DNA of 64,000 nucleotides, taken from the NCBI GenBank assembly GCA_900544575.1, contig UQVO01000006.1, positions 27,006 through 91,005 on the forward strand. The letters run 5' to 3'. This DNA comes from an uncultured Eubacteriales bacterium (GTDB lineage: Bacteria > Bacillota > Clostridia > Christensenellales > CAG-917). A program made the position numbers and the translations under genes. Shown one piece after another: positions 20,147 to 46,832 of this stretch. Every line of letters begins with the position of its first letter. The stretch's first letter is position 1. A model generated the notes under the pieces. It made no database searches and had not been told where the DNA came from. It saw nothing but the letters and a program-made list of their open reading frames with translations.

Positions 20147-20176
20147 GTAGGTGACTAAAATCCGGGAGGACGGACT

Positions 20177-21186: not shown

Positions 21187-21271
21187 CGCCCTACGGGCGT
21201 GCGTATAATTTCCACGTATTATAGTCTATGCGGGCGCGATTTTATGCGCGCGAGAGCGTAGGAGGGAAGTT

Positions 21272-24200
21272 ATGAGAAAGTGGAAGTTTGCGATTTTGTT
21301 TGTGCTCGTGCTGTGCCTCACGGTGGGTATGCTGGTTGCTTGCGACCAAACCGGCGGCAATTCGGGCACCCCTACCATTCCCACAAATCCGGACGGTTCG
21401 CAGACGGAAGACTCTTACACTACGATGTCGGGGTCTGACGCCTGGGCTTTGTTCAGGGAAGCGGCGTCGGCGGCCAATGCGCCGACGGGCAATTACGTCT
21501 ACGCCGATTCCGTCATTTATCTCGACTACATAAAGGACGCCACGGGCTATCTTTATGCCGTCAAGGTGCAGGCGGACATCGACCTCGCAAACGACGTCAA
21601 TTCCGAGCTTCTGCTCGAACTCTGGCAGGCCAACGACGAGGGCGACCTTGCGAAGATGCTCGTCGGTCTGTACTATTACGACTCCACTCTCGTCTATGAC
21701 TGCACGGGGCTCAAAGAGGGCGCCAAAGTAGTCAAAACGGACAACATCAACATCACCGCGATTGAGGCTACGCTGCGCGAAATGTTCAACGGCAGCAGCC
21801 TTGCCAACTTCCTCCTCAACAATCTTCTCACTTTCGACACCGGCGTTGTCGGCACGGTCGAAGGTCTTGTCACCGCGCTTCTCGGCGATTCCCGCCTCAT
21901 AACCAACTCGGACGGCACCCAGCGTCTCGAAATGCCGCTTTCCCTCACCAGCATTATCGGCTCTCTGCTTTCCGGCGTTCTCGTTCCCGGCCCCGACGGA
22001 CTCATTTCCGACGACATCGCGGAACTCATTTACGACATTCTCGGCATAGACCTTTATATGTTCGAAGCGCTTGTGCCCGAGAACGTGTCGGTCTATCTCA
22101 TTGCAGACCTCAAAGACGGCGCGGACGGCGGCAAGGTTCTCTCCGGAATGAGCGTTGACGTGGGTGTGGACTTCAACACTTACGACACCAGTCTCGAAGA
22201 GGATTACGGCATCATCGAAAGCTCCGTAGACCTTTCCATAGGCGCGACCACCATCGACAAGCTCACCGCCCCCACGCTGGACGTCGTGGGCTATCTGACC
22301 GCTCCCAAAGCGGCGGAAGGCGAACTCGAATCCGCGGGCGGCAGAGGAATAGAGAGCATAGAGTCTTTGGACGACTATTCCATTCTGACCCTTGACGTTA
22401 CTCTTTCCCTCGGCGTTGCGCTCAATGCTTGCAGCATCAGCGCAAGCGACATAATGGGAGCCTTCGGCAGCCTCATAACGGGGCTCATTCCCGGAGGTTC
22501 AATCACCGAGGACATTCAGAAAATCCTCGACAAGGAAATCAACATCGAAGACGCGCTGCACGAGCTCAACATTCACATCTCGGGCGGCATAGATATGTTC
22601 GACAACGCGGGCACGAATCTGCTCATCGAGATAACCGGCGAGGACGTCTACAATGACGTGCGCGCGAGCATCGGTTACGTGGGAGCGGACGACGCGCTGT
22701 ACGTCGACCTCTCGGGCATTCTCGGCACGGGCAAATTCGTCGTCGACGAAATCGACCTCAACGGGGTGCTTTCCGACCTCATTCAGAACCAGCTTATTCC
22801 TCTCGTGAAAGACGGCCTTGCAAGCGTGGGACTGCTGCCCGACGCCGCGGACACGGAGGAAGGAGACGACGAATCCTCCGTGACGGACGAACAGAAGGAA
22901 GCCGTCGAAACGGTGGGTGAGCTCATCGCAAACGGCACCGTTCTGCAAGTCTACGGCGGTTCCGCCAGCGGCGAACCCATCACCGACGTAATCGGACTGG
23001 TCAGAGCCATTTTCGCCAATATCGACGTCGATATGGCGAATAACATCTTCAACATCCAGGCAATCACCGCCACCCTGACGCAGGAAATCCTCGACTACAT
23101 CTGGAGCCTTGCCTTCACGGGCAACCTCGAAGGCGCGACCATTCCCATTGTCGGCGACGTCGTGCTCGAATACCGCAACAACGGTTTCGCCACCACCAAG
23201 GACATCGAACTTAATGTGGACCTCGGAAACGTGCTTACGGGCGACGTTATCGCGGGGCTTACCGTCGGCATAGAAGCGCAGTTCGGTTCCGTCATAAACG
23301 AAAGCTATTTCAACGAAAGGCTTGCGGCATTCTCCGCGGGCAGGCAGAACGGCGATTACATAACGCTTGCCTCTTTCGGCGACCTGTTCGACGAACAGGG
23401 CAACTTCGCACTCGACCCCGAAACTCTGCTTGCGGGCATACAGTCCGTCGGCATCGGTTTGCGGGCGGACATCAACATCAGTGCGCTCGAAGGCGGGCTC
23501 GCCGACATCTATTACGAACAGGCGAACGAGTTCCTCATCGCGGTGCTTGCCGAGTTCGAGCAGTCTTTCGGCGGCAGCGCCACTCTCGTGCTGCAAGCGG
23601 AAGTAGCGGACGTTTCCGCCCTGATAGCGGCGCTCTCCGTGCCGGAGGGCCAGCAAGTCGATATCGGCGCGGTGCTTCCCGCTCTCAACATTTATCTCGC
23701 ACTCGAAATCGCGGACGGTTCCGCGCCTTTGCGCGTGTGGCTCGTGGACGGAGTCATCTATCTCGCAACTTCCGAGAAACTGCTTAACGGCCTTGCCTTG
23801 CAGGTGGACATCAAACCCTTCCTCACCTCCGCCGGCGGCGCAAACGAAGCGCTTTCCGCCGACGGAACGGGCAGCGGCGACACGGGCACGGGAAGCGCGG
23901 TCACCATTCCCGCGGAACTTCTTGCCATCATCACCGCGGCCGACATCACCGTGGGCGACCTCTACATTGACGTGGCTCTCGGCTCCGGGCTGCTTGCCAC
24001 GCTGCTCAACCTCATCGGTGTGGAGGGCATAAAAATCAACGAAAGCGGTTCCGACGAAACGCTCGGTCTCGACGCAGGCATTTCCATTGAACTCAACGAC
24101 GGTTTGCAGATTGCGGGCGGCGACACGTCCGAAGGACTTTCCATCGGCATAGTGCTCGGCGTGGGCGAAAACTTCGACTTCACCGTGGACCTCGGCGGAG

Positions 24201-27200
24201 TGAACGCCGTGGTCAACGGCGACAGCTATATCGAGTCCGTTCCCGACGACGTCGAATTCGTCGACTTCTTCAACGAACCTTACGTCAATCTTTCTCTCGA
24301 ATTCGGACTCGGCGCGCTGATTGCGGGCGGCAGCATTTCTCTCGGCGACGATGTCGGCAGCATAGACTTCCCCGAAGGGCTTGACGTCGACCTTACGCTC
24401 TCGCTGAATGCGAACCTCGACCTCGGCACTCTGCTTGCCGAATTTACCGGCGTCGTGCCCGAGGGCGAGAACCGTACGCAACTTGCCTTGCAGCTCAAAA
24501 ACGGCGACGAAGTGCTCCTTGCCGCTTACTATTCGGCGGGCACTTTATATGTTGACGCGGGCGCGCTTATAGGCGCGCGTGTGAGCACCGACCTCGACAT
24601 AATGGCGCTGCTGGCGTCCGTAATCGCGGGTTCGGGCAGCGGCGGCGAAGGCGGCGAAGCAGTCACCACGGCGGATATCAACGCGGAAGATTATTCCGTC
24701 GGCGTGTTCGAATTCCTTATGAAAGTCACCTCCACGGGCTTCTCCGTCGAAGTCGCGAAGGGACTTACCTCCGTCATCAACGACCTCATCGGTATGGACC
24801 TCGGGGAAATCAGCGCAGTGCTTTCTCTCGACTGGACGAACATCGTCAAGGACGAGGACGGCGGCTATCTCCTTGCGGGCGAAGTCAAAGTGGGCGATAT
24901 GGCGACGGTGAACATTTCCCTCTCCGGGCTCGGTCTCGGAATAGGCGAGGGCATTTTCGATAACTCCGTCCTGCCTGCGGAATTCGACTCCGAAGACTAT
25001 AAGAACATCGGCAGTCTGCTTGACGAAAACAATCAGTTCAGTGCAGAGGGGCTTGAACTCGACAGCGTATATGTCGAGCTCAGCGGAACGCTCGACCTTT
25101 CGGCGGACGCCAACACCGCCGGCGACTGGAATGTCGGCGATTGGATAAACAACTTCCTCGAAGGTGACGCCACAGTCGCCGACAACGTGAAGTCGCTCAT
25201 CCAGAAACTGGTGCTTTCGTTTGCGATAGACAGAAGCGTTTCTACGTCGCTCGAATTCGGTCTGAAAGCGCTGCTGCGCTTCGGCGACGATATGACGGAT
25301 GTGGGCTATATCCTTTCCCACTCCGATATTGCGCTCGAAATCAGGGAGAGCGGCAAGACGGAAAATCTGCTCGCGGTTTACATCATCGCGGATGAGGCCA
25401 CGGGCAAGAGCACGCTTTACATCGCTTCCGATGCGGGCGGTCTCATCGGCGGCGGCATTGCCGTGCCCGACATCGACCTCGGCTCGCTCTTTACGGCGAA
25501 CACCGACACTCCCGCGGAAGGCGAAGGAACGCAGAACCAGGCTCTCTCCGCCGCGGACGGCGAAACGGATACGACGGACGGCACTGACAATATCCTCGAC
25601 ACCATTCTCGGCATCATCAACCGCATTTATATGACGGACAGCGAACTGGAAGTCGGCCTCGGCGCGAACTTCCTCGTGTCGCTGCTCAATATGCTGCTGC
25701 CCGGATATGAGCTGAACGCTGACAATTTCGTGCAGCTCAATCCCGAAAACAGCTTCCTGTCCCTGTTCTACGGGCTCGGCGAAGGCGGCCGCAGAGAGAT
25801 AGGCATAGACCTCTCCCTCGGCGTGGACCCCTTCACCGTTGCGCTCGGACTCGGCGGGCTTAAAGTGGCAATCAACGACGACAGCAACGCCATCGAACCT
25901 TCCGTTCCCGAAGGATACGGCGGAGTCGACGACTATTACAAGAACATCTTCGCGGAGGACGGCGTCATTTCGCTCGAAGCCACCGTCGGTCTCGAACTTT
26001 CCTTCGGCGACACCGCGGCGCTCGAAGACGGGAAACTGCCTCTCGGAGATATGCTCTCCGCGATAATAGCCAATCTTGCCCTTGAACTCGGCATCGAAAT
26101 TTCCGACGACCTGCGCCTTGCCGTGGACGTCTATCTCGGCGCCAACATAATGTTCGGCGACGCCGAAAACACAGAGATTGCCCTCCAAATCAAAGACGCG
26201 ATTTCCTCCGACGTCATCCTTGCGGTCTATCTCAAAGGCTCCGCGATGTACGTCGATATGGGCAAACTGTCCGACAAAGACTTTGTCATCGAAAATACGG
26301 GCATCATCTCCACCGTCATCGAAATGGTGAGCGGACTGCTTGCCGGCGTCGAAGATAACGGTGCGGAAGGTGCGTCCGAAGCGGTGACCGCGTCGGATGC
26401 CACGGCGCAGGCGGACGAAGAAGATATGCTCGACATCGTGTTCGAAATTGCGGAAGGGCATCTTGCCCTCAACGTCACCGAGCGCGTCATTCTCGGCATA
26501 ATCGGAGCGTTCGCGGGCACTGATGTGGACATCGATTCCATCTTCGAAGCGCTCAATCTCGGCGCGGAAGTGTCCGTCGACGTCGATTTCGAGGCGCCTT
26601 CCGTGAGCATTGACATCGACACCAACTATGCAAGCGTGGGTGTTTCGATAGATAAGCCTTACATCACCAACTCCAAGAGCGATAACGTAAGCGGCATTAT
26701 CGACAAAGCCATAGCGGAGGGCAATTTCCAGAGCTACACGGCGAGCAGCGTGGCGCGTTTCGGTCTGAACCTCTCCGTGCGTTACAGTGCCGACGCGACT
26801 TATCAGAAAGTCGACAATCCCGACGCGTACGCGAATTCGGACAGATACACTCAACTCTCCGACGGGTCGTTCGTGCAGGATAACGACGGCGATTATGTGC
26901 GCCGTGCCGTGACGCTTTCCGAAATTATCGATGCGTTGCTGGATATGCCCGCAATTGCGGACGCTTTCGGCAACGTCGGCAACGAAACCTTGCAGGCGAT
27001 AGTGGACGTGCTCGTCGCACGCCTCGGCATCGAGCTTTATCTCGACGACCCCATCAGCGACAATCTCCAAATCAACATCGAAGGTCTGCTCGACCTCGAA
27101 GCGCTGGGGCTCAGCGGTATACTCGGCGACTTCACGATTCCCGAGTTCGATACGCTTGCGATTCTCAACGCGCTGCAAGTCGGCATCGAAATAATCTTCA

Positions 27201-30200
27201 ACCCCGAGACCGGCAGCACCGCGGATGTCGCCATCTATCTGATGAACGGCGACATCTACGTTGACCTCGAAGGGCTCGGCGGTCCCAAAATCAGCGCAAG
27301 GCTGTTCGATATCCTTGCGGAAATGGGCGTCAGCCCGTTCGGCGAAGGCGGTTCGGAAGCGGTGACTGCGGACGAGAATTCCGGCGACGGTTCCGGCAAC
27401 ACTTCGGAAGGTGTGGACATCAACGCCATCCTCAACGCGCTGGTGCGCACCATAGTGCTGCGTGAGGGCGGTTTCGCGCAGGCAGGCACTGACGGCTATT
27501 ACAACATTCTGCAGAGCGGAGTCGGCCTTGACCTTATGCTGCCGTCCAACCTCGTCGGCAACATAGTGAGCCTCATCGTCGGAAACGGCGAAGAGTACAG
27601 CTTCGACGACTTTATCCTCAACGAGGAACAGAGCCGCGTAAGCCTCGTTCTCGGCGGCGGCAACATCGCCATCGAAGTCGCGGCGCAGTCCGACACCGGG
27701 TTCAGCATAGCGGTATCCACGGAAGCGGGCATTACCATAGACGTTGCGACTCAGGACGACACCCTGCTGTCCTCCCGCGAGAGAAGCACCTATGTCGATA
27801 TGACCGATTTGGTGCTCAACATAATCGACCTCGTAAACGGCGAAACCACCGACGGAGGCGGGTTCGGTTCGCAGCGCGTTACGTTCAGCCTGTCCGGCAT
27901 GGCACAGTTCGAGTCGGACGGCGAGGGCAGCTACGACCTCGGCTCGCTGCTAGCGGATTATCTCGGCGACATAATCCTCGAACTCAACACGCAGGAAGCG
28001 TTCTCGGACGGCATCGCGTTCCGTCTGTCCGTGGCGGCGGACCTCGGAGCGATTGATTTCGCGTCGTTGACCGGCGACACCCCCGATTGGGACGCATTCC
28101 TCGAAAATACCGACCTCGACACCATCGAAGTCGCGCTGGAACTTCTGAACATCGACGATGCGGGCAACATCGAACAGGATAACGTGCTGGGCGGCATCTA
28201 CATTTCGCGCGGCAGATTGTATCTTGACGGCACCGACATCTTCGACGTGGTCGAGAATTATTCCTATGTGCCCAACTTCCTGCAGTTCGTCATCGAAGCC
28301 GCACAGCTCGGCGCGTCTGCGGACGTTACGACGGGCGAGAGCGGCGGCGCGTCTTCTCAGGCGCTTACCGCGGCGGTCACGGCATCCGAGGGCAGCACTT
28401 CGGCGCGTGACGCGCTTCTCGAACTCATCTATTCCGACACCGCAATGCAGATTGTGCTCACCAAGAGCATTATCAGCGCGGTGCTTGCCACGCTCGTACC
28501 CGACCTCGGCGGCATTGCCGACATCTTCGACAACTTCGACGTGACGCTGGGCGCGGAGATAGGCAGAATCGATTACGAAAGCGTTTACGACGTGTTCTAT
28601 GAGGCGACGGCGGCAGAAGACGGCGAATATGTGGCTGTCACGGAAAAAGACAGCATAACAGGTTTCCGTCCCGCCACGGCAGACGACGTCGGTGTGCAGA
28701 GATACTCCCTGACCCTCGTCGAAGCCGAGAGCGTGCTTGACGGCACTTATTACGTGAAGGAAGCGGACGGTACGTTTACCGCCGCGGTCGCGGGACACAG
28801 GTACAGCTATTACGAAACGGAAACTTACTCGCTCGCAGCAGAAGGGGTGACCGGTTCGTTTGTCAAACTTGTTGCTTTGGACACCGATGACAGAGAAATT
28901 TATCTCGAAAGCGACAAATATGTGTTCTACACCCCCGCGGAGAACGGAACATACAAAGTCGTTTCGTCGCTTGACGACGAAGTAAGCGGCGACAGCGTAT
29001 ATGTCATTTACGACGGTATGTACCGCCAGCTCGAATATACAGGTGAAGGCGAAACCGCCGAAGTGAATACTTATGTCAGGCAGTTGGGCTATGTGCGCGA
29101 TGCGGAGGGAAAATTCTACCGCGTCTACACGCCGCACACGGCGATATCCGACTTCTATCTTACGCTCGGCGCGCACGTCGGCACGATGAACGTCGGGCTT
29201 GAACTCGGCGGCATTGAGATAGAATTCGGCGGCACCGATTCTCTCGTGCCCGATTACGTCACCGCGGGCAAGACCAAGACCCCCGCGAAATATGACGGCA
29301 CGCAGGACAAGGCTTATACCTATGACGAAAATACGGGCGTCTATACAGAGGTAGAATCGCCGCAAACGGGAGAGGAATATTATTACGACGTATCCCTTGC
29401 TCCGTTCTACAATTCCGTCATTACGGTCGGGATGTCCGTTGAGTTCGAACTTTCCATCACGGAAGGGCAGATTGACGTGGGCCAGATTTTCGCGGGCATA
29501 CTCGGCGACCTCGACGGCATCGTCATCGAAATCCCCGAAACCAACAAGGGTTATTCCTCCGCACATCTGCGTCTGGACCTCTCCCTTATGCTGGATATGC
29601 AGGACCTGCCCGGTTCCGAAATAGCGGTCGAACTGTACAACCTGTCCTCCGAAACGGGGGCGGAAGTGAAATGGCTTGCGGCATACTATCTCGACGGTAT
29701 GCTGTATATCGACCTTTCCTTCTTCAATATGCCCAAGCTCGCCGTGCCGATGACGGAAATTTCCGACTTCATCGAAGATATGCTCGGCGACCTGCTCAAC
29801 ACTTCCATTTACGACGATGTCGAAATCTCCGGCGGCTCTTCGTCCGAAGCGATAACCGCTGACGATACATCGGCCTCGGACGACGAGAGAGCAGACCTCA
29901 CCACGGAAGAGAAGGTTGCGTCGCTGCTTATCAGCGAACGCAGACTCGCGCTCTCTGTCGGCAACGCGTTTATGCGTTATCTGCTTGAAAACATCACAAT
30001 CGGCGACGACCCGCTCGGAAGCCTCGTTTACGAAGACCTGCTCGGAGGACTCGACGTTGTGATAGACGTCAGCGACGGGCTCGATGTTTCGCTTGACCTT
30101 GCGCTTGCGCTTACGGGCGACCGTTATATCCTTGTCGACAACAACGCGAGCGAAGCAACCGACGACGTCCTCTACTATGTGTTTAAGGCGGGCGCGGACG

Positions 30201-36200: not shown

Positions 36201-39200
36201 GCAGTGTGCGTATCAGCACTTCCGTCGATGTGGGCTTCTACGGTCATACCGGTGCCGACATTGACCTCGGGTCGCTGGCGGACCTCATCTTCGGCATCGA
36301 CGCCATCAAGAGCGCACTGGGTGTCGAACTTACAAACAACAGCCTTGACGTAAACATCACGGGCGAGCTCGGAAACGAAGACGCGCCTTACTTCAACATT
36401 CAGCTTGACGGCTGGATTGACCTCGGCACCGGCAAGTTGCAGGTCCTGCTCGAAGTCGGACGCTATGACGAATCCGGCGGCCTCGATACTATGCTGGCGG
36501 TAAGTCTTGCAGACGACACGCTGTATGCGGACCTCAGCGGTCTGCTCGGCACGGGAGTGAAGGGTTATATCACCAATCTCGGTGTGGAAACGCTCATTGC
36601 TGATGCGCTCGGCGGTCTGACCGGCACGGGCACGCAGAATGCGGAAGCCACCACGGCGACCATTTCCGACACTTCCGATATGACTTTGCACGAGTATGCG
36701 TATCTTGCGGTTATGATTAACCCCGGATATTTCTCGCTGCAACTGACGCTGGCGGCAATCGAAGCCATCATTGCCAAGGTCGGAGCGGACAATCCCGACC
36801 TCAACCTCGGCGATATCGACCTGCCCGACCTCGGCGACATAATGATTGAGTCCAACGGAAGCGCGGAAGACGGGGCGTGGCTGTCGCTGAATGCCAAACT
36901 GTCCGAAGACTTCGGTGCGTCCATCGACATCGACCACCTCTACCTTGCGTCGAATCCCATCTACACCACGACCAACAAGGCGGGAGATGAAATCACGGGC
37001 ACGGAAGGCGGAAGAGCGAATGAGATATTCACCGATTACACCTTCCTGTATGATGTGGCAAGCGGTGAGCTCAATTCCGACCTCAACATCTCCGCAAGCG
37101 CGAGCGCGGAAATTTCGATGACGAGCGAAGGACTTAACCCCGGCGACGAAGGCTATGAAGACTCCCTCGCGGGCTGGGTCATCGACCTCGTGACGGGCTT
37201 GCTCGGCTCCACGTCCATATTCGTGACGCCTTACGACATCGGTGCGGAAGCGGACTACAACAAATACGGCGGGCCCATCTATGTCCTCGGCGAGGACGGC
37301 GCGTACGTCGAAGTCGGCAAAGTCGCCGCGGGCGGCAGCGGATACCATGCGCTGAAAGATGACGGCACTTACGATATGGACACCGTGACGACTTGGGAGA
37401 ACGGCGGTTACAGCCAGTATTACCGCACGACCATAGTCGAGGCGACCTTCGCGGCGAATGAGGTCAACCTTACTATCGACCTCGAAGCGGACCTCAACAT
37501 CGGCGCCATCGTCACCTACGGCATAGGAGGCATCCTGTTCAGCGACCTCCGTGTGTCGGTCGGCCTCGGCTCGCCGTTCAACAGCACTATCCTCGAAGTG
37601 TACTATCTCGGCTCTTCGAGACTGTCCGATGCGGCAAATAACAACATCTACACCCTCGTCGAAGACGTCGAAACGGGCAACCTCGGCGCGTTCAACGACG
37701 CAATCTACATCGACGCGAGCGGCCTCGGTCTCGGAAAGATTAAGTTCCAGGGTCTTGCGGGTGTCTTAGGCGCGAACATAGGGCAGATTTACGACAACGA
37801 CGCGCTCTCCGCCGATGCGGGCAGCGCTGCGGATGAGACGGATACCGGTGCGGAAGAGGGCACCGCGTCGGAAGGCGAGTCTTTGCCTTCCGCAAGCGTG
37901 TCGCTCGGCATCAACATCGCCGAGAACTATGTCGGCATCGGCATTGACCGCAACCTCATCCAGACGGTGTTCGGGCTGCTCGGCGACAGCCTCGGCGGCA
38001 TCAGCCTGCCCGACGTGCAATCGCTCAACCTCGGCCTCACCTTCGGCGAAGTCGGTCTCAGCTCCATTGCAATAGATGCCGAACTCGACGCTGCGGGCAC
38101 CGGCGCGCATATAGCGCTCTCCGACCTCGAAGTGTCCCTCGACCCCTTCGTTGATGTGGACAGCCTTGTCAACCAGGTCGCGACCCAGTTTGCAGGCTTG
38201 ACCTACTCGCAGACCGCCGGCACAATGACATTGTTGCAGAATATACTTGACGGGCTGAACGCCAACTTGTCCTTGAATATTGACAAGAAAGCTGAGTCTA
38301 TCGTGCAGTCTACGGGTGCTTGGGGTGGCTTGGTAGGAGGCGGTTTTGATGCCGTTCAGGTCAACAGAAATTCAACGGTAAGCGTAACAGGTTCGGGTGG
38401 TTATCATACGCCTTCTGATGGCGCGGCAGATGATATCCCATATGACTATATGCTGTATCTTACTGCTACTGCACGTCATCCTGAAATTACCGACAATAGC
38501 GGAATATCTGTCGATATTTACTTCGGCAATGCCAATTTGTGGATTGACAACTTAGGATTGAACCTTGGCGGCTTAGAAAACATTGACCTAATTATGAATG
38601 CTATCAATGGTATGTCACTTGGTAGTATGCTTAATGGCTTGCTCAATTTCGGATATTCCGATGCCGATAATTCGAGTTGGAGTCCGTCTAACCCTGTTGC
38701 AACGACGGCATCCGATGAAACTTTAAACAAAACGTCTTATGCAACGACGGCATCCGAGGTGACCGATTACACAATCAATTGGTCAAATAAATATAGTGGC
38801 AATGCAAATTCCACTTACACATCGACAGCAAGCTCCTTGGCATTGGAGAGTTTGGTTGAAAAGGTTGAAGTCAACCTGTTTAACAGAAACGGCTATCAGC
38901 CATATCTCAGTGATATGCCTTGGGTGGATCAGACTTTGACTGAGGCAACCGACGCATCCCTCTTGTCCGTGAAAGTCGAACTCAGCAAAGACGGATACAA
39001 CGAATTGATGATTTTCGTGTATAAGATGCTGTTCGGGTTGTTGCAAACTGCCGTAGATACAAATGCAAGCAGCTCAGCTTACTTTGCGTTGAACAGTGAC
39101 GCAAATATCGAACGTCATTGGAGCGATAATCGTAAGTACACAATTTCCAATCTGCTTCGCGAACTTGACTATATCGATTCGTTGAGTGGCAGTGCACATG

Positions 39201-42200
39201 AAAAGACTGTCAAAAAAGTTGAGCTGCTCGAACCATATGCGGAATCGTTGCCATACGCTATGGCAGTATGGTTGATTGAGGATATGCTTCCGCAGTCTCT
39301 TGACCAGACCATTATCGATATCCTTATGCGTGCCTCTATCGGGGCAAACGCAATCGGTGACGTAACATTGCTGCTTGCCGGTATTCTGCCCCCGTTTGCA
39401 TCGTATGATGAGAGCGTGCCCAATCCGTCGCTCAACGTGTATATCGACCTTGCGCCCGAAAGCCATGACTTATATGGCATAGACAGAGAAATCGCGCCCG
39501 GTATTCAGGCAATCGAGCTTATGGTCAATGCCGAAACATCAACCGTTGAAACTACCAATATTAATGGAGTCGATACACCGAGTCGTGGCGGCAAGTGGTT
39601 AATGCAAGGGAGCAATGTCGGACAGATTTGGTTTGATGCGAATGAAAGCGACCCTGAAGGGAGTAGCTGGCATAGCTCGATTCAAGGCGGATATGTGCTG
39701 TCAATCAATCCGCTGAATCTCATTCAACCGGGCAGTGAAGGCGAAGGGCTTGCGTCCTTCATCGAAGCGGATCACCTCAACGGTAATCTTACGACTACGG
39801 GCGGGGTGGATGTAGAGAACGTCTTTATCGAAGTCGACGACATCGGCACCAAGTCCGCGACGATGTACTCAGGCACGTATACCGAGAACGGTTGGAACAA
39901 CACTTCTCAGATCGCGACGGGCAACCTCAACGCGGGCTTCCTGACGAGCAACCTGCCCACAAGCGCCAACGTACAACTTGTGAATCCCGCGGGTGCACAC
40001 GATGTGACCGTGGTTTGGGACGCGTCGGCGATTGACCTCTCCGCGCCTCAGGACGGAGAGAGCAGGCTTGCGGGCTTTGTGTACGGATATGCGCTGAACC
40101 TGGTCGTGGCGAAGATACCCGTTTATGTGACGAACGATTATGCCTTCACCGGTATCTATGCATATGACACGTCAGGCAGTGCATCTCAGCTCTCCGTCGA
40201 AATGGACGGCGGCAACGTGACGCTGCCCGACCTTGCGATGATTAACTTCACGCAGGGCAGCTATGTGTTCGGCACGCAGAGGTTCGACGAGGCGGGCAAC
40301 GCGCAGTATGCGGTGCTCCGCAACGCCAGCGGCAATTATCAGTTCAAAGTGACTGACGCCAACGGCAACGTGACTTATTCTTATCACGAGCTCGGCATAA
40401 GCAGCACCGAAACCACGACATACGAGCTTGCCCTCTATCCCGCATATGTGGCTTATACTCAGGAAGGAAATACGGTCACGAGCGGAGAAACGACGTATTA
40501 CGTCATCGATTCCGCAAGCGTGAACAATATGCCCGTGGGTACGATAGCCTGGGATTTGTCCGAATTCTACTACGGCTGGGACGGCGGCAACGTGACGCTC
40601 GGCTTCACATATCAGTGGGGTTACTCCGCTGAACAGACTGCATCCGTAAGCGTGCCTGTGACAGGTGTGCTGATAGAAGATGACGACAGCCTGACTTTCC
40701 GCGGAGATACGGCTACGATATACGGCGCGGAAGGCGGCTTTACGTTCTCCGATTGGGATGCGTTGCAGGATGCGGCAGGTGCGCTCGGCGACGACTGGGC
40801 GGCTCAACTGAAAGCCTATATCACAGGTTTCAATACACTGTCCGGCACTTATATCGTGGCAAGCGGCTACGGCAACAGCTTCCAGAAAGCAATAGCCTGG
40901 GACCTCTCCGCGATTGACAGCCTGAATGTGACGCCCGGCTCCGCGTTTACCGTCCAGGTGACGATGTTTGTCGGCACCGGCGGCGACGGCTATAACATCT
41001 GGCGCCAGTATAACGGCAATGCGCTCTCTTACGGTATGATGGGAGATGTCGCGGTCTATGACGACGAGGCGGAAGCGTGGAGAATCGCAACCAGCAATAC
41101 TGACCACAATATCATCAGGCAGCAGCTTGAATCACAGGGGTATGCGGTTGTCGCACAACCCGTGACGGTGACCATAACCGTGGGTGCGCAGGAAGGCTTC
41201 GTGCCTTCCGGCAGCACGGGCGGCGGCACGGATGAAGGCGGCGAACAGGGCGGCGAAATCACGACCGAGAGCGTTGACACCTTCGCGTTCTCCGACGGCT
41301 CGTCCACTTCCGTCACGGCTGACGGCGTGCAGACATACGAAATTACTTCGTCCGCGCAGCTCTACGGTATGATGCCCGAAAGCGGCGTCATCGTTGACGG
41401 CGACACGGGCAGGACGCGCAAAGCGGCGTTCGATTGGAACGGATTTGCCTATGACACTTCCGCTTCCGTGAACGTCGCGCTGCTCACCGCAACGAGCGGC
41501 GGCACGCGTATTGAAACCGACGTCATCGTCACGTTGGCGGACAATGACGACGTGAACGCGGGCGTCGGCGCGCTCGAAGCTACGGCAGGGTATGTCACGG
41601 GCATTGCTGACGCGAGTATGCGCGCGATGGTCATCGACCCGTTCGAGTATCCCACATTCGCGGCGTATCTCGAAGCCAAAGGATATGAAAACGGCGACGA
41701 AATTACAGTGTATACGACCGATAGTCCGAGTGTGCCTGTGCGTGCGACCGTCGTCGCTTGGAGTGACACTTTCGAGAACTCTTCGGCAATGCCTCTTGCG
41801 GGCGGAAGGTATGACGACCACTGCATTATCGTCGAAATCGGCGGTGTGCAGTATTCCGTCAACGTGCCCGTCATCGTGTTGGAACGCAACATAGCGGCGT
41901 CCGAACTGCTGCTGAACGAGGGCTTCGAACTCGTCAACGAGTACAACCGCCTCAACAGCACAATCAGACGTTATGTGGGCGAAGGTCAGGTCGTGGAAGT
42001 CACTTATTCCCGCGAAACCTATCTGCCCACCGCGATAACGGTCTACAACCTCTATGCGTTTGCGGATAATAATCCCTTCACGGGTCAAATCCGCATCACG
42101 TTCGAGAACGGCGGCGAACAGGTGGATTACGCCTTCGACTATGTGTCGGCACAGAAGGACGGCGGCGATGCGTATACCGACGAATATGTTGATGTCGACG

Positions 42201-44203
42201 GCATCGAAATCGTGCGCAAGAACACGTCTTCTTCCGACGCGCGTATCTACAATTACACCGTCGCGGGCGGCATACAGACAGGTTCGGTCACGGTGACGTT
42301 TAATGCCGTGCGCATCACGCAGAACAATATGGATTCCGCGGTTGCGTACGGTGACCTCGGCGGCACTGCCGACGGCACCTACGAGCCTTTCGCTCCCTAT
42401 AAGAATATGACGCTCGCAAGCGGCGGAGAAATCCTGTCCACGCCTTACGGCACACAGGGAAGCAATCTCTCTTCCGACATCACCTTCTACATTGACGGCA
42501 GATACGTCGCTTCCGCAGGCTTCGATGCCGCGGATTATCCCGGATATACCGTGCTTGCCGACGACGGTGTGAAGCGCGAATATGTGCGCGGCAGCGGCAC
42601 CTCGTACACGCTTGTGACGGATAATACCACCACCACCGCGGCAACGTACTACTTCATTTACGGTGCGAAGGATAAGTTGAAGACGAGTGAACTCACCTGG
42701 GACCATTCCGGCATCAGCTACAACTACAACGGCGGACTCAGGCGCACTTCCGCTTCCGTCAATGCAAACGGAATCACGGGTACGGTGACCGTTCCCATCT
42801 GGATCGTCAGCGGCAGAATACAGAGTGTGGACGCGCTGTACTTCAACGAAGACGGACAGGACGGCTTGCTTGCCGTAGGCAGCACGCTCAGCGTCGACCC
42901 GTTTGCGGGCATCGACCTCACCGCACTTGCGGCAGAAGGCAGCGAACATTACAAATACTTCCCGTCTTCCGTTGACGTCACGACTACGGACGGGTGCAAG
43001 ATAAGCGGACTCGGCGTCACCTGGAGCAATCTCGGCTCCATCCGCAACACCTATCGCGGCGGCGTGTACAGCGCACGTCTTACCGTGCCTGCCGTCACTT
43101 CCGAAGACGGCGCCACCTCTTACGTTGCGGCACAGGGCTTCACGGTCGACAGTTTCGTCCATGTGGAGAGCAGAGCGGCTGTGGACGGGACTTTGACCCC
43201 CAATAACGGAGCGCTTCCGACTGTCGGGTATGCGGACCAGGGCACGGCAACGTCCTATATCGACCCGTATGAGTTCGACCTCTCCGCATTCCGCGCAGAA
43301 GTGGAACAGATTACCTCTGTCACCGTCAGTATAAACGACGAGGAAAGCGGCAGCGTCGAGAAGACATTTACCACGGACGGACAGGGCGGCTACACCCTCG
43401 TGTGGAGCTTTGCGGGTATGGCGGTCAACTATCTCGGCGGCAGAGTCGCGCTCATCGCGCAGCTCACCGGTCCCGACGGTTCCACCCAGAATTACGAGAT
43501 TGACTATCTCGTCACCCGCAAACTTGTCAACAACATAACGGGCACTAAGGGCGGAGATTGGAGCAGCGATGTCAACACAACAGTCGGTTCCGACCTCGGC
43601 AGAGCGTCGACGACATACGCAATAGACCCCTTCACGCCCGATACGCAGTCGCTGCCCACGGGCTGGAAGGTGACGTTCGCTTTGTCCAATCCCGTGCTTG
43701 AAGGCGGTGTGGTGACAGACTGGACGGATGCGGGCACGGAAGAGCAGTCTTACAGCTATATCACTACGATAATGCCTTCTACCGCGGCAATGACCGCTGA
43801 GAATGCAGCAAACGGAAAACCCGATGCGGGTGATGTGACAATGCAGATAGACGGCGGTCAGCGTATTCGTATTCCTGTCAGTATCACGGGCAAGACTACA
43901 AGTGCAAATCCCACTTCAAGCGGCAATGTGCTCCAAAGCAAAGTGGACGGAGTGACTGTTGTCTGGCACGGCACCGTCAGCATCAGCTATAATAACGGTA
44001 AGAATACAGCCACATACGACGTGACGTTCTCCGACCCCACAGGCGCTGATATAACTGTGGAAGCAATAGAGGGCAGAACCGCATCTTATACGCTTACTCC
44101 CTACATCGGAGCCGTCATTAACGCAGCGGGTAAAGTGCTGGATTGGAACGGTGACGTTCCCGCGGCAAACCGCATCGGAACCACGGTGTCTTTCAGTGTT
44201 TAA
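21272..44203 (+). CDS. Giant 7,643-residue repeat lipoprotein
   Basis: A single open frame of 22.9 kb with GGAGGG before the ATG. The N-terminus is a lipoprotein signal peptide: basic RKWK, a hydrophobic core, and lipobox L21-V22-A23-C24. Residues about 40-5510 are tandem beta-rich units, each with a 'LYVDLSGL...K.KVDL' strand followed by a Gly/Ser-rich linker resembling GASEAVTA. Tyr-rich inserts lengthen the middle units. Residues about 5640-6160 come from an AT-rich DNA patch, and residues 6160-7643 are Ig-like repeats with WDxS and IDPF motifs. The protein is acidic and has very few cysteines after C24. It has no LPXTG motif or C-terminal transmembrane helix, so only the lipid would hold it on the cell surface. 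Function is unknown; adhesion, glycan binding or a lipid-handling beta-groove are possibilities. Confidence 0.92.
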   Translation: MRKWKFAILFVLVLCLTVGMLVACDQTGGNSGTPTIPTNPDGSQTEDSYTTMSGSDAWALFREAASAANAPTGNYVYADSVIYLDYIKDATGYLYAVKVQADIDLANDVNSELLLELWQANDEGDLAKMLVGLYYYDSTLVYDCTGLKEGAKVVKTDNINITAIEATLREMFNGSSLANFLLNNLLTFDTGVVGTVEGLVTALLGDSRLITNSDGTQRLEMPLSLTSIIGSLLSGVLVPGPDGLISDDIAELIYDILGIDLYMFEALVPENVSVYLIADLKDGADGGKVLSGMSVDVGVDFNTYDTSLEEDYGIIESSVDLSIGATTIDKLTAPTLDVVGYLTAPKAAEGELESAGGRGIESIESLDDYSILTLDVTLSLGVALNACSISASDIMGAFGSLITGLIPGGSITEDIQKILDKEINIEDALHELNIHISGGIDMFDNAGTNLLIEITGEDVYNDVRASIGYVGADDALYVDLSGILGTGKFVVDEIDLNGVLSDLIQNQLIPLVKDGLASVGLLPDAADTEEGDDESSVTDEQKEAVETVGELIANGTVLQVYGGSASGEPITDVIGLVRAIFANIDVDMANNIFNIQAITATLTQEILDYIWSLAFTGNLEGATIPIVGDVVLEYRNNGFATTKDIELNVDLGNVLTGDVIAGLTVGIEAQFGSVINESYFNERLAAFSAGRQNGDYITLASFGDLFDEQGNFALDPETLLAGIQSVGIGLRADINISALEGGLADIYYEQANEFLIAVLAEFEQSFGGSATLVLQAEVADVSALIAALSVPEGQQVDIGAVLPALNIYLALEIADGSAPLRVWLVDGVIYLATSEKLLNGLALQVDIKPFLTSAGGANEALSADGTGSGDTGTGSAVTIPAELLAIITAADITVGDLYIDVALGSGLLATLLNLIGVEGIKINESGSDETLGLDAGISIELNDGLQIAGGDTSEGLSIGIVLGVGENFDFTVDLGGVNAVVNGDSYIESVPDDVEFVDFFNEPYVNLSLEFGLGALIAGGSISLGDDVGSIDFPEGLDVDLTLSLNANLDLGTLLAEFTGVVPEGENRTQLALQLKNGDEVLLAAYYSAGTLYVDAGALIGARVSTDLDIMALLASVIAGSGSGGEGGEAVTTADINAEDYSVGVFEFLMKVTSTGFSVEVAKGLTSVINDLIGMDLGEISAVLSLDWTNIVKDEDGGYLLAGEVKVGDMATVNISLSGLGLGIGEGIFDNSVLPAEFDSEDYKNIGSLLDENNQFSAEGLELDSVYVELSGTLDLSADANTAGDWNVGDWINNFLEGDATVADNVKSLIQKLVLSFAIDRSVSTSLEFGLKALLRFGDDMTDVGYILSHSDIALEIRESGKTENLLAVYIIADEATGKSTLYIASDAGGLIGGGIAVPDIDLGSLFTANTDTPAEGEGTQNQALSAADGETDTTDGTDNILDTILGIINRIYMTDSELEVGLGANFLVSLLNMLLPGYELNADNFVQLNPENSFLSLFYGLGEGGRREIGIDLSLGVDPFTVALGLGGLKVAINDDSNAIEPSVPEGYGGVDDYYKNIFAEDGVISLEATVGLELSFGDTAALEDGKLPLGDMLSAIIANLALELGIEISDDLRLAVDVYLGANIMFGDAENTEIALQIKDAISSDVILAVYLKGSAMYVDMGKLSDKDFVIENTGIISTVIEMVSGLLAGVEDNGAEGASEAVTASDATAQADEEDMLDIVFEIAEGHLALNVTERVILGIIGAFAGTDVDIDSIFEALNLGAEVSVDVDFEAPSVSIDIDTNYASVGVSIDKPYITNSKSDNVSGIIDKAIAEGNFQSYTASSVARFGLNLSVRYSADATYQKVDNPDAYANSDRYTQLSDGSFVQDNDGDYVRRAVTLSEIIDALLDMPAIADAFGNVGNETLQAIVDVLVARLGIELYLDDPISDNLQINIEGLLDLEALGLSGILGDFTIPEFDTLAILNALQVGIEIIFNPETGSTADVAIYLMNGDIYVDLEGLGGPKISARLFDILAEMGVSPFGEGGSEAVTADENSGDGSGNTSEGVDINAILNALVRTIVLREGGFAQAGTDGYYNILQSGVGLDLMLPSNLVGNIVSLIVGNGEEYSFDDFILNEEQSRVSLVLGGGNIAIEVAAQSDTGFSIAVSTEAGITIDVATQDDTLLSSRERSTYVDMTDLVLNIIDLVNGETTDGGGFGSQRVTFSLSGMAQFESDGEGSYDLGSLLADYLGDIILELNTQEAFSDGIAFRLSVAADLGAIDFASLTGDTPDWDAFLENTDLDTIEVALELLNIDDAGNIEQDNVLGGIYISRGRLYLDGTDIFDVVENYSYVPNFLQFVIEAAQLGASADVTTGESGGASSQALTAAVTASEGSTSARDALLELIYSDTAMQIVLTKSIISAVLATLVPDLGGIADIFDNFDVTLGAEIGRIDYESVYDVFYEATAAEDGEYVAVTEKDSITGFRPATADDVGVQRYSLTLVEAESVLDGTYYVKEADGTFTAAVAGHRYSYYETETYSLAAEGVTGSFVKLVALDTDDREIYLESDKYVFYTPAENGTYKVVSSLDDEVSGDSVYVIYDGMYRQLEYTGEGETAEVNTYVRQLGYVRDAEGKFYRVYTPHTAISDFYLTLGAHVGTMNVGLELGGIEIEFGGTDSLVPDYVTAGKTKTPAKYDGTQDKAYTYDENTGVYTEVESPQTGEEYYYDVSLAPFYNSVITVGMSVEFELSITEGQIDVGQIFAGILGDLDGIVIEIPETNKGYSSAHLRLDLSLMLDMQDLPGSEIAVELYNLSSETGAEVKWLAAYYLDGMLYIDLSFFNMPKLAVPMTEISDFIEDMLGDLLNTSIYDDVEISGGSSSEAITADDTSASDDERADLTTEEKVASLLISERRLALSVGNAFMRYLLENITIGDDPLGSLVYEDLLGGLDVVIDVSDGLDVSLDLALALTGDRYILVDNNASEATDDVLYYVFKAGADGDAAGLFVYDTEEEVYRAANTQDISAGTTTYVRYEAANVDGAWVYYTYTEFDGTPADGTTYYRYDEAQDAYVAVGADEDTTGVTLYTRDNGTAASNLPVYAYVAGTSANPNDYDTELDLYVGINNVDMYFTEQREYSLTADELKEYYNFNSVDTVSLSETISLDLLFDVGSEIDLASLFEYLFPDSTYDFDTIIAAIGEGDQKDEILRGLELTVSLEFKLGAFINYLRSLDALYELGSLDENGVFTALAELPEELDLVTFIQLVMSLVGAKAVPNADGSIYYTDDNVDDLFGLEDFLNFVNASVVLSTSSNDGTPDHTMLGVYLSLGDADGVEYDADKHEGQQRYSHYFASALGDYGYVDGKYVLISEIEGYDEAVHGRYSYDASFLYPDENGKFVRESAGLYVDLSYFGQPGVYVNLTELMDFIGGMMGQEVSLDGIGASEAITAAGDDSSVFPVDLGDILGGGINLSDSLPLLSQEIAAYVQAFLYGIRITSTYIRVFLQADFIDRLIDLLDTDPSLDFGDFEQSYIGINVDVNNYLYAGLDGATAEQIEFADTRFAIEDTGADGDGMYYKTDAGYYELRSDMTAQEEENYDGSYYNITPIETYLNVNGEYVLASEASNTDWLRAERYDAEGAVAAGNAELEGTYKFYVAADSEYAGEDTDGNGYAEFAVADDIYVVYPSDEQKPFIEANIYLWNHNISLGINMPTTSGAEYSYNNVGEGNGAYEAVELALYTPDSVIDGDGGAEGNDYLYYRGEYYQITLDALYTYVDGARQPVSDWSAFVRNPYAGNYYLHVLVEGEGFDQYIVIEEDYVYEREVYKTVYRYVGEGNGSYERLATTSLVSVPEFHVNFDSDVDYDGLTENEYYVDDTGNLVAGKAPAGTEKVYDKEDVHFVYDEAAGTFMSVADYLAANSLDSLPDGTRVYDSEYINYLDTGDLYYLNVVIRGEIFLGQHVEYLTKDEWTSANLGELPADAYVLVRGKYVPYDEHNTTHAGLTKYYAYANSSSAVSEVLGAILGDMDALFTVADGYQARLPFEIRATVKLDYANETDYNSLYVAGLELAVDVWRTEASDDTLSHVLGLYYMSDVWNIGDNDITNDVINSSALYLDLTWLLGDGAKFKVDLSAYPLEDLLNDNIDIGSIFGDGASEAITAADKTDLGDTSKATVLLNVFSRSIALKASAGLIKLLVGLIAPDMSATLEEMLPNMSIFAQIDAAPYDLTIGATLYDEEGTGLLDLGLTLNLFNTDDASEGLQLSFGSLEDYAELSAAQLAAKSKDYIYYYGLFTRDDDVAGDDYYIKDGTEKGYVHISEATEEQIAAAGDAKFVFNDDPAYDVFVSSAARNSYEKSERYAAIPEGFIVLDDAADYTWATNIGTQLYYYSYSFTSGRATMYTVNSSQVGNMSNGIRFVDYGIDGQNVGYAKLYINYNLLSSEQRSQALVQFGLTESEVNSVRYTLDSQGAHKQTTVFTDYKTLLSLDLEDLIAGIGGSDESTDTTSAILDMLVGGLQDAGLETVEIGGTLSLDLTFSDAINWTRQMSRLMATDSSADTYFEMLLASLAMNSAEFVSAIGLDIKLALQIRLDGLIAMLPDLLGGGEIDTAALLGAILGGASIYLEIAVDTNFFGDKIEDAQPIKIWLLVDENLGADIYLDTTGLGKVIGSVGDGMTDFFGKLKLEGMLNLGELLSGIAGGSGASEAVTAADSSFVIDIGDATTGLIPEDIWGVLNLLVGQVLFAGDMISVGITENLLAGLIEALVPEFPEEDLELLPTFTVTSGADTSGVNLLFGDGSLALQVQLGVRGGFDDYAPLDEVVEVIEQLGSASVYGIDDISAYLGGITLNSESEVVISTEDYALAVYASPEEAWLGDRYTLSGFNAEGHPEFTLVQDAYAGAFTQSDDGLYGILTEDLTSYQGVTGGQVTEGTYVTYEEGTYMLVSRIEKLTRETYSGARYSFDEDAVTGEYIKLGDVTIALELGDIGVLVNEEFSAALSDDEKAAYGNVLSSSVRISTSVDVGFYGHTGADIDLGSLADLIFGIDAIKSALGVELTNNSLDVNITGELGNEDAPYFNIQLDGWIDLGTGKLQVLLEVGRYDESGGLDTMLAVSLADDTLYADLSGLLGTGVKGYITNLGVETLIADALGGLTGTGTQNAEATTATISDTSDMTLHEYAYLAVMINPGYFSLQLTLAAIEAIIAKVGADNPDLNLGDIDLPDLGDIMIESNGSAEDGAWLSLNAKLSEDFGASIDIDHLYLASNPIYTTTNKAGDEITGTEGGRANEIFTDYTFLYDVASGELNSDLNISASASAEISMTSEGLNPGDEGYEDSLAGWVIDLVTGLLGSTSIFVTPYDIGAEADYNKYGGPIYVLGEDGAYVEVGKVAAGGSGYHALKDDGTYDMDTVTTWENGGYSQYYRTTIVEATFAANEVNLTIDLEADLNIGAIVTYGIGGILFSDLRVSVGLGSPFNSTILEVYYLGSSRLSDAANNNIYTLVEDVETGNLGAFNDAIYIDASGLGLGKIKFQGLAGVLGANIGQIYDNDALSADAGSAADETDTGAEEGTASEGESLPSASVSLGINIAENYVGIGIDRNLIQTVFGLLGDSLGGISLPDVQSLNLGLTFGEVGLSSIAIDAELDAAGTGAHIALSDLEVSLDPFVDVDSLVNQVATQFAGLTYSQTAGTMTLLQNILDGLNANLSLNIDKKAESIVQSTGAWGGLVGGGFDAVQVNRNSTVSVTGSGGYHTPSDGAADDIPYDYMLYLTATARHPEITDNSGISVDIYFGNANLWIDNLGLNLGGLENIDLIMNAINGMSLGSMLNGLLNFGYSDADNSSWSPSNPVATTASDETLNKTSYATTASEVTDYTINWSNKYSGNANSTYTSTASSLALESLVEKVEVNLFNRNGYQPYLSDMPWVDQTLTEATDASLLSVKVELSKDGYNELMIFVYKMLFGLLQTAVDTNASSSAYFALNSDANIERHWSDNRKYTISNLLRELDYIDSLSGSAHEKTVKKVELLEPYAESLPYAMAVWLIEDMLPQSLDQTIIDILMRASIGANAIGDVTLLLAGILPPFASYDESVPNPSLNVYIDLAPESHDLYGIDREIAPGIQAIELMVNAETSTVETTNINGVDTPSRGGKWLMQGSNVGQIWFDANESDPEGSSWHSSIQGGYVLSINPLNLIQPGSEGEGLASFIEADHLNGNLTTTGGVDVENVFIEVDDIGTKSATMYSGTYTENGWNNTSQIATGNLNAGFLTSNLPTSANVQLVNPAGAHDVTVVWDASAIDLSAPQDGESRLAGFVYGYALNLVVAKIPVYVTNDYAFTGIYAYDTSGSASQLSVEMDGGNVTLPDLAMINFTQGSYVFGTQRFDEAGNAQYAVLRNASGNYQFKVTDANGNVTYSYHELGISSTETTTYELALYPAYVAYTQEGNTVTSGETTYYVIDSASVNNMPVGTIAWDLSEFYYGWDGGNVTLGFTYQWGYSAEQTASVSVPVTGVLIEDDDSLTFRGDTATIYGAEGGFTFSDWDALQDAAGALGDDWAAQLKAYITGFNTLSGTYIVASGYGNSFQKAIAWDLSAIDSLNVTPGSAFTVQVTMFVGTGGDGYNIWRQYNGNALSYGMMGDVAVYDDEAEAWRIATSNTDHNIIRQQLESQGYAVVAQPVTVTITVGAQEGFVPSGSTGGGTDEGGEQGGEITTESVDTFAFSDGSSTSVTADGVQTYEITSSAQLYGMMPESGVIVDGDTGRTRKAAFDWNGFAYDTSASVNVALLTATSGGTRIETDVIVTLADNDDVNAGVGALEATAGYVTGIADASMRAMVIDPFEYPTFAAYLEAKGYENGDEITVYTTDSPSVPVRATVVAWSDTFENSSAMPLAGGRYDDHCIIVEIGGVQYSVNVPVIVLERNIAASELLLNEGFELVNEYNRLNSTIRRYVGEGQVVEVTYSRETYLPTAITVYNLYAFADNNPFTGQIRITFENGGEQVDYAFDYVSAQKDGGDAYTDEYVDVDGIEIVRKNTSSSDARIYNYTVAGGIQTGSVTVTFNAVRITQNNMDSAVAYGDLGGTADGTYEPFAPYKNMTLASGGEILSTPYGTQGSNLSSDITFYIDGRYVASAGFDAADYPGYTVLADDGVKREYVRGSGTSYTLVTDNTTTTAATYYFIYGAKDKLKTSELTWDHSGISYNYNGGLRRTSASVNANGITGTVTVPIWIVSGRIQSVDALYFNEDGQDGLLAVGSTLSVDPFAGIDLTALAAEGSEHYKYFPSSVDVTTTDGCKISGLGVTWSNLGSIRNTYRGGVYSARLTVPAVTSEDGATSYVAAQGFTVDSFVHVESRAAVDGTLTPNNGALPTVGYADQGTATSYIDPYEFDLSAFRAEVEQITSVTVSINDEESGSVEKTFTTDGQGGYTLVWSFAGMAVNYLGGRVALIAQLTGPDGSTQNYEIDYLVTRKLVNNITGTKGGDWSSDVNTTVGSDLGRASTTYAIDPFTPDTQSLPTGWKVTFALSNPVLEGGVVTDWTDAGTEEQSYSYITTIMPSTAAMTAENAANGKPDAGDVTMQIDGGQRIRIPVSITGKTTSANPTSSGNVLQSKVDGVTVVWHGTVSISYNNGKNTATYDVTFSDPTGADITVEAIEGRTASYTLTPYIGAVINAAGKVLDWNGDVPAANRIGTTVSFSV
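23834..37845 (+). repeat. Tandem beta-rich units with SEAVTA-like linkers
   Basis: Twelve linkers of the type G[AG]SEA[VI]TA, or worn versions (NEALSADG, QNQALSAAD, SSQALTAAV, NAEATTATI, DALSADAG), occur near residues 855, 1124, 1420, 1700, 2027, 2359, 2857, 3416, 4122, 4668, 5123 and 5511. Each follows a segment ending in a strand like LYVDLSGLLG plus a short amphipathic helix. It is followed by a helix pair such as LLGLIEALVP and strands of alternating hydrophobic residues. Unit length is about 270-330 residues in the first half and up to about 700 in the middle. Positions were worked out by hand from the codon frame. Confidence 0.8.
28590..29400 (+). repeat. Tyr-rich insert cassette in the giant gene
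   Basis: Runs of a loose 20-30 residue motif, Y-x-x-x-x-x-G-x-Y/F-x-x-V/L with Asp, Glu and Thr between, for example YVFYTPAENGTYKVV and YVRDAEGKFYRVY. Similar cassettes lie at about 30120-30620, 31180-31420, 31880-33230, 34020-34350, 35750-36090 and 37240-37440. They interrupt otherwise regular units and account for the longer middle units. Confidence 0.6.
38220..39740 (+). other. AT-rich patch inside the giant gene
   Basis: Codon use and base composition change sharply here without breaking the frame. A hand count of 38581-38640 gives 21 G or C in 60, against 38 in 60 for 37501-37560. The encoded protein has more Asn, Ser, His, Trp and Lys than its surroundings. A 17-base direct repeat (GCAACGACGGCATCCGA) at 38699-38715 and 38741-38757 encodes two ATTAS[D/E] linkers. 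Confidence 0.8.
39740..44200 (+). repeat. C-terminal Ig-like beta repeats of the giant protein
   Basis: About eight degenerate units of 100-150 residues. Recurring marks are a [IV]xWDxSxI strand (IAWDLSEFYYGW, IAWDLSAIDSL, LTWDHSGISYNY, VVWDASAIDLS; weaker FDWNGFAYD, VTWSNLG, LVWSFAG), followed by a GG turn and paired V-x-V strands, and an IDPF/IDPY start (VIDPFEYPTF, SVDPFAGIDL, YIDPYEFDLS, AIDPFTPDT). This pattern is reminiscent of bacterial Ig-like (Big) domains. The protein ends directly on such a strand. Confidence 0.65.
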
Positions 44204-44275: not shown

Positions 44276-44498
44276 CACAACGTCCTCCGATTTCGGAGGA
44301 CGTTGTGATTATTCCCCGCCGAGAAATCGGAGATTTCTCGGCGGGGACCCCGAAAGTGCGCCGCGGCGTTCAAGCGGCGGTTGCACCGCCTGTGAACGCT
44401 TGGCTGAGCGGCGCGTGCACTCCGAATAAACAGACTCTTGGGGACGGAGCAAAACGGTCCGGAGTTTCGGACTGTTTTGCTCCGTCCCCGGGAGTCTG
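44276..44498 (+). other. Highly structured intergenic region after the giant gene
   Basis: The 418 bases between the giant gene and the AEC transporter gene hold a series of hairpins. (1) A 15-bp perfect stem at 44276-44290 / 44293-44307. (2) A 15-bp perfect stem at 44314-44328 / 44332-44346. (3) A nested element: 44358-44364 pairs with 44408-44414, 44366-44372 with 44393-44399, and 44376-44380 with 44386-44390. (4) A 31-bp stem at 44431-44461 / 44468-44498 with loop GAGTTT and three G-U pairs that hold only in plus-strand RNA. None has a classic T-tract. One stem may end giant-gene transcription. Confidence 0.75.
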
Positions 44499-46831: not shown

Positions 46832-46832
46832 A

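Follow-up and report, generated by a model that had tools for sequence, protein, structure and literature searches.

What is a protein of 7,643 residues, and what might it do at the surface of the cell that makes it? The question is raised by a 64,000-nucleotide stretch of contig UQVO01000006.1 from an uncultured Eubacteriales bacterium (the window, to which all positions refer), in which one forward frame encodes a giant lipoprotein. The answer that we rank highest, with slightly less than even confidence, is a membrane-tethered surface arm of fixed length that would carry an immunoglobulin (Ig)-like contact tail. What we observe of it is the frame, the lipobox, an array of modules, the Ig-like tail, their conservation, and relatives without a sortase match. 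A literature search, mostly of titles and abstract openings, found no publication on the giant protein.

A single intact frame with a lipid anchor

The gene is a single intact frame and encodes a real protein. It starts with an ATG at 21272 and its stop ends at 44203, with no internal stop; an AGGAGG motif ends 6 nucleotides 5' of the ATG, and the sigma-70-like site upstream (Table 1) is one of two found in the stretch, against 0.3 expected by shuffling. A long perfect hairpin 3' of the stop, a possible terminator, was not listed by the scan for T-run terminators.

With residues 1-5000 as the query against 5.8 billion proteins, 565 candidates were scored and 201 of them matched. Among the best 120 listed, at least 111 span the entire query at 70% identity or more and measure 7,611-7,837 amino acids (aa); these are P0001, which is the window's own, to P0111. 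P0112 is a shorter relative of 6,025 aa, and P0113-P0120 (7,911-7,930 aa) are 57% identical. A scan of GTDB contigs returned one locus, L001, at 50% identity. Its genome family, hereafter the related family, has the giant gene in 33 of 43 genomes (assemblies of 0.8-2.2 Mb, completeness unreported for all), those without a match being G002, G008, G012, G013, G014, G020, G026, G035, G038 and G041. Contig ends break the gene in some genomes, and in G010 and G011 its 5' part lies on another contig. Aligned over its full length with 19 orthologues, a set from which G011 was omitted for its missing 5' end, the window protein shows colinearity across 5,627-7,336 residues, with identities of 24-55%; colinearity down to 24% argues for long-term selection on the giant frame.

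The unusual length, and nothing more, might suggest an assembly artefact or a decaying pseudogene. The chance of this is close to negligible given the full-length proteins (the window's own counted among the 111), the 33 genomes with the gene, and the fact that Tandem Repeats Finder (TRF) lists no tandem DNA arrays in 20000-45000. Repeat pairs inside the protein, as aligned by BLAST, are 20-31% identical, and therefore too divergent for assembly collapse.

The N-terminus reads MRKWKFAILFVLVLCLTVGMLVAC followed by D, the lipobox LVAC being residues 21-24 and its cysteine residue 24. All 41 proteins with a visible start, the window's own counted, have a lipobox (40 by rule, that of G136 by eye). 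The signal peptide is the only segment of transmembrane strength (mean Kyte-Doolittle 2.91; runner-up 1.85), and there is no hydrophobic C-terminal segment (at most 1.19 beyond residue 7000). Host traits were deduced from the related family, whose giant copies are at most 55% identical to the window protein. Sortase matches were found in none of its 43 genomes (the control gave matches in 3/14) and Omp85 matches likewise in none (control 7/14), while Lgt is found in 41, in 40 of them above cut-off, with a control that missed Bacillus subtilis. Lgt without sortase or Omp85 matches makes a lipid anchor the natural surface anchor, and lipid-only anchoring looks like a trait of the lineage as far as these gene searches go.

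A preliminary description of the window had thus read the gene correctly in claiming one 22.9-kb frame without stop or frameshift, an LVAC lipobox, and a lipid anchor with no C-terminal anchor. The promoter of its own that it assigned to the gene finds a counterpart in the sigma-70-like site, as a consensus match only, and the assembly collapse that it named as a possible refutation did not occur.

Asp and Glu make up 15.5% of the protein, Lys and Arg only 4.0%, and its pI is 4.05, with five Cys in the mature 7,620 aa; such an acidic, Cys-poor composition is compatible with an extracellular protein. An antisense open reading frame (ORF) of 2,057 aa overlaps the gene at 27950-34123 on the reverse strand; it exists because TTA, CTA and TCA are rare in the sense gene (22 of 7,644 codons).

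An ordered array of modules and an Ig-like tail

After the lipid anchor and a linker come a truncated first module (U0), 14 beta modules of about 280 residues (U1-U14) and Ig-like repeats. The array was found by repeat profiles, which place the 14 modules between residues 176 and 5822. U1-U7, U13 and U14 match the first module profile, built from modules of the same kind, at E<=2e-27; U8 and U10-U12, which were left out of it, give partial matches (E 1e-23 to 1e-5). U9 has no significant match to a profile omitting U9, and is recognised by BLAST (residues 3308-3660 versus 2723-3054, E 8e-14).

Table 1. Features of the giant lipoprotein gene and its product
Feature	Residues	Position	Strand	Basis
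Promoter site, sigma-70-like, TTGTTA-17-TATAAT		21158..21186	+	consensus match only
Ribosome-binding site AGGAGG		21260..21265	+	letters read directly
Giant lipoprotein gene, 7,643 aa		21272..44203	+	ORF, homologue search, family genomes, full-length alignment
Type II signal peptide and lipobox LVAC (Cys24)		21272..21343	+	translation; family comparison
Gly/Pro/Ser/Thr-rich linker after lipidated Cys		21344..21436	+	by eye
U0, truncated first module	~87-164	21530..21763	+	E 2e-8 with complete-module profile; range from wider profile
U1	176-535	21797..22876	+	repeat profiles
U2	575-872	22994..23887	+	repeat profiles
U3	873-1130	23888..24661	+	repeat profiles
U4	1140-1420	24689..25531	+	repeat profiles
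U5	1432-1705	25565..26386	+	repeat profiles; model pLDDT 81.8, pTM 0.74
U6	1714-2030	26411..27361	+	repeat profiles
U7	2045-2362	27404..28357	+	repeat profiles
U8, Tyr-rich insert	2374-2860	28391..29851	+	second half E 1e-23, profile untrained on U8
U9, Tyr-rich insert	2873-3418	29888..31525	+	BLAST and wider profile
U10, Tyr-rich inserts	3430-4124	31559..33643	+	two partial matches, E 2e-7, 2e-11
U11, insert	4138-4672	33683..35287	+	partial match, E 2e-7
U12, insert	4684-5124	35321..36643	+	two partial matches, E 1e-5, 7e-12
U13	5134-5512	36671..37807	+	repeat profiles
U14	5535-5800	37874..38671	+	repeat profiles
Ig-like (Big_4-like) repeat array, 7 scored copies	6224-7584	39941..44023	+	iterated profile
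Long perfect hairpin, possible terminator		44276..44307	+	read directly

Counting the truncated one, the window protein has 15 modules and the 19 family orthologues have 14-18; the cut protein of G011 has 12. For the cross-genome comparison, the colinear alignment served to set the borders of the modules. The best match of a module was the same-numbered module in 4,494 of 4,800 comparisons, and in 4,118 of 4,409 without the closest clade. Same-position modules scored a median of 99 bits, against 27 bits for the other modules within one protein. Position is kept least well by U9 (161/232) and U10 (120/191), both with large Tyr-rich inserts.

The module profile A4 comprises 109 of 261 defined modules, U8-U12, U14 and copies below 200 or above 360 aa being omitted. 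Pfam, searched at E<=1 with four protein slices and at E<=0.1 with the 109 modules, gave no family for the module apart from weak matches judged to be chance, namely Phytoreo_P8 in the window protein (E 0.0018, below cut-off) and DUF1318 in two of the 109. A4 had no match at E<=10 among PDB sequences. Against the 5.8 billion proteins, 7,996 candidates of about 150-480 aa were scored and none was a stand-alone module protein at E<=0.01, a search of doubtful reach as it returned no fragments of giants either.

The model of a single module (U5) is confident by its predicted local distance difference test (pLDDT, 81.8) and predicted template modelling (pTM, 0.74) scores. It has 11 strands plus helices, the last block being five strands and then a helix, and its sheet is hydrophobic on one side; the strand statistic covers 10 of the 11 strands in a 140-row module alignment. 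With this model Foldseek found nothing at E<=0.001, and a viral fold library likewise gave no match at E<=0.001. All Z scores of the VIA structure search were below 8, with the top row tied with chitoporin (7.1) and most rows outer-membrane barrels; LolA, TamB and VPS13 are absent from the 50 rows displayed, which excludes nothing. In hhalign comparisons the module gave a probability of 0.1 with one E. coli LolA, as did the unrelated control serS (0.1), and 0.2 with one YceB (TULIP) sequence, when the positive control, the short relative G190, gave 82 (E 1e-5); neither the LolA nor the YceB comparison gave a signal. A three-module AlphaFold2 (AF2) model (A2, 19 rows) was also set aside (pLDDT 52, no Foldseek match at E<=0.001), and a two-module alignment from overlapping pairs (103 rows) was discarded with its rows out of register.

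The last ~1,400 residues form a region separate from the modules, made of Ig-like repeats with a WDxS...YxGG core and the consensus LPttvtVtftDGt...VtWDlS. All 31 giants searched have such repeats in their C-terminal region, with 2-19 scored copies each; these counts are not independent, because the profile started from three distant giants and was then iterated on the very proteins searched, window protein included. The same consensus pattern is that of Big_4 (PF07532), of which the repeats appear a variant marked by a DPY/DPF motif before the core, and by GGYQ in distant giants. Pfam recognises Big_4 in the short relative G242 (34.2 bits, cut-off 22.1) and, below cut-off, in G190 and G136; the window tail itself (slice from residue 6301) matched no Pfam and no NCBIfam family at E<=1. 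Retinol-binding protein matches of G190 (best E 0.005) come from one redundant family and were discounted. The poorly conserved junction between array and tail coincides with a step of low GC content (0.49 at 38001-40000, against 0.54-0.61 in the other 2-kb steps).

The preliminary description saw no enzyme domain, and Pfam shows none (NCBIfam was run on the tail and three short relatives only). Its reading would have suffered had the repeats clearly matched a characterised family; the modules have no such match, and the Ig tail has a loose (Big_4-like) one only.

A widespread family and its genomic setting

Judged by its sequence relatives, the giant protein is no orphan: it is a member of a large lipoprotein family, widespread in uncultured small-genome Clostridia. 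A profile search across the order gave giant-type matches in 91 of 396 genomes, with at most two candidates scored per genome. Twenty-six of them belong to the related family (all E<=3e-68) and the other 65 are weaker (E 2e-17 to 9e-4); 22 of these 65 were inspected, ten picked because their reported frames were long and twelve because theirs were short. Nine long relatives measure 9,193-12,463 aa (G173 was reported at 12,531), and G276, reported at 13,589, has 9,050 in view. A lipobox is found in the 9/9 with their start in view, and all ten match a module profile from the related family alone (4 to 23 matches, E<=0.1). The twelve short ones (1,667-3,397 aa, G391 running off its contig) all start with a lipobox, one of them by eye, and have 1-8 modules. 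One plan thus covers sizes from about 1,670 to more than 12,000 residues. The 1,671-aa form has 38 database relatives, none with a precomputed Pfam domain or name. A class-wide search with A4, which may miss distant giants, matched 2 of 391 genomes, both in the related family. The giants of G106, G245, G254 and G058 (L069-L070, L077-L080, L085-L086) have 135-207 Cys each, when the others have 5-33; this excess is due at least in part to inserts rich in Cys, as seen in G058 (CGCDNP...).

The neighbouring genes are unrelated in sequence to the giant gene, as first described, but the location is conserved: among 20 genomes compared, homologues of neighbours lie near the orthologue in 13 for glycoside hydrolase family GH20, 12 for PIG-L, 10 for Mem_trans and 10 for SPFH. 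These counts cover presence near the gene, with flanks that are not complete in every genome. Upstream, at 15841-20980, an HGSNAT-like acetyltransferase (reverse strand), a GH20 hexosaminidase and a PIG-L deacetylase are grouped, which suggests amino-sugar metabolism from the gene assignments; the PIG-L protein had no match in phage records. Downstream, at 45710-47894, an SPFH (Band_7_1) protein with zinc ribbons is followed by a second zinc-ribbon protein, and SPFH homologues lie downstream of giant orthologues down to about 29% identity. Farther away, a BD-FAE-type esterase stands between two condensation/PapA-like acyltransferases (4940-8852); G004, G006, G018 and G033 have acyltransferase and esterase homologues at ~3-13 kb on the upstream side of the giant gene. 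A probable histidine biosynthesis cluster occupies 56362-63678 (hisD above the NCBIfam cut-off; hisZ and hisC as best matches below it; the rest by eye).

Possible roles of the giant lipoprotein

As a fixed-length arm, the protein would be secreted, lipidated at Cys24 and retained in the cytoplasmic membrane at its outer face. Next would come a short, flexible linker and a rod made of the truncated first module and the 14 beta modules, near-fixed in number and fixed in order. At the far end, seven or more Ig-like domains would form a tail in contact with an outside target, be it a partner cell, mucus or fibre; exposure at the surface, the shape of a rod and this contact are what we infer. Giant LPXTG or S-layer-anchored Gram-positive adhesins are likewise very long and secreted, with tandem beta domains and Ig-like repeats. 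The window protein shares the tandem Ig-like domains (seven copies), but it has an N-terminal lipid anchor, modules outside Pfam that are not homogenised and near-constant in number, no C-terminal sorting signal and no sortase match in its relatives. Two points weigh against the arm. In adhesive stalks, repeats are usually homogenised and variable in number, so that unhomogenised modules in near-constant number suggest that they do more than add length; and no model across two modules is confident (three-module pLDDT 52), which leaves the rod shape conditional.

What more the modules might do is addressed by a doubtful but serious alternative, in which they are open curved beta-sheets that bind acyl chains on their hydrophobic face, and the tethered row relays external lipids to the membrane, like an extracellular bridge-like lipid transfer protein. 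The one-sided hydrophobic sheet of the modelled module is in keeping with it, but alternating strands are normal in beta proteins, and the structural matches (Z below 8, chitoporin tied for the top row, nothing in Foldseek at E<=0.001) do not favour it. VPS13, ATG2 and AsmA/TamB resemble the array in being long chains whose beta modules keep a fixed order and have amphipathic strands, and the last module block has five strands plus a helix. The repeating beta-groove (RBG), as outlined in part of PMC7613979, is a repeated five-stranded meander with a helix or loop crossing and one continuous hydrophobic groove. The strand order in one modelled module is compatible with this topology, whereas groove continuity and strand pairing between modules are not visible at a pLDDT of 52; the window protein differs further in its N-terminal lipid anchor, its Ig tail and the absence of a sequence match, no VPS13/ATG2-type Pfam family being found in the four slices (E<=1) or the 109 modules (E<=0.1). 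The 11 strands with helices and the hydrophobic face resemble a LolA/LppX-like carrier fold, but neither hhalign nor the displayed structural rows bring up LolA. Lipovitellin, of the large lipid transfer protein superfamily, is also among the closest known systems. No second membrane is known as a target of such an arm, and Omp85, the biogenesis gene of the diderm envelope in which an AsmA/TamB-type role would be set, is found in 0/43 related-family genomes.

Lipid metabolism bears on the same alternative. The family UBA1242 of Christensenellales comprises small-genome gut bacteria without lipid biosynthesis, which may depend on partner cells (PMC12306168). Taking the 396 genomes of the giant search and of the ketoacyl synthase (KS) search as the same set, a FabF-like synthase is found in 0 of 91 carriers and in 66 of 305 non-carriers, kinship uncorrected. 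Sorting the KS matches by hand gave 66 that are FabF-like, of which one is split and another is truncated by the end of its contig; these 66 alone were counted positive. The others are 8 double-KS matches and 27 short ones, which we take to be thiolase-like. With 66 of 396 genomes having the enzyme, most of the order seems, by gene content, unable to make fatty acids. FabH-like domains are rare in the related family (3/43), and DegV, the family of FakB, is present in 42/43. The FabF association is nevertheless confounded by kinship, 43 of the 65 weak carriers are unchecked, and 239 non-carriers also have no FabF-like match, as does most of the order. Moreover, carrier G173 has a double-KS protein, carrier G376 a short KS-like match and carriers G037 and G039 a FabH-like domain; nor are all DegV proteins fatty-acid carriers. 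A more specific proposal, rather unlikely in our judgement, is an extracellular lipid conduit of a new class: about fifteen hydrophobic-faced modules, lipid-anchored and with the Ig tail outward, drawing lipids from partner cells or the surroundings. It would serve bacteria that have no outer membrane and cannot make fatty acids and, if true, would be an analogue of VPS13-type bridges that evolved outside the cell.

More improbable still is a coat, in which copies packed side by side would form an S-layer-like or glycocalyx-like sheath in place of wall-anchored proteins, perhaps of the wall itself. The 43 related-family genomes without a sortase match agree with it, and three genomes without matches to penicillin-binding protein (PBP) transpeptidase and FtsW/RodA (G004, G040 and G042) have giants of 8,436, 10,465 and 10,447 aa. 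But PBP transpeptidase is found in 37/43 related-family genomes, no lattice domain was found, and missing wall genes may be assembly gaps, completeness being unreported. Six genomes lack both wall matches: G004, G008, G009, G040, G041 and G042. G040-G042, which we group together, may be wall-less; G040 and G042 retain giants of about 10,450 aa.

The fixed-length arm keeps the first rank. A small genome seldom retains a costly gene that it does not need, and a gene of ~23 kb kept colinear in assemblies of 0.8-2.2 Mb probably has an important surface role. The family offers a handle on how uncultured small-genome Clostridia, without a sortase match and apparently without fatty-acid synthesis, make contact with their surroundings and feed on them.
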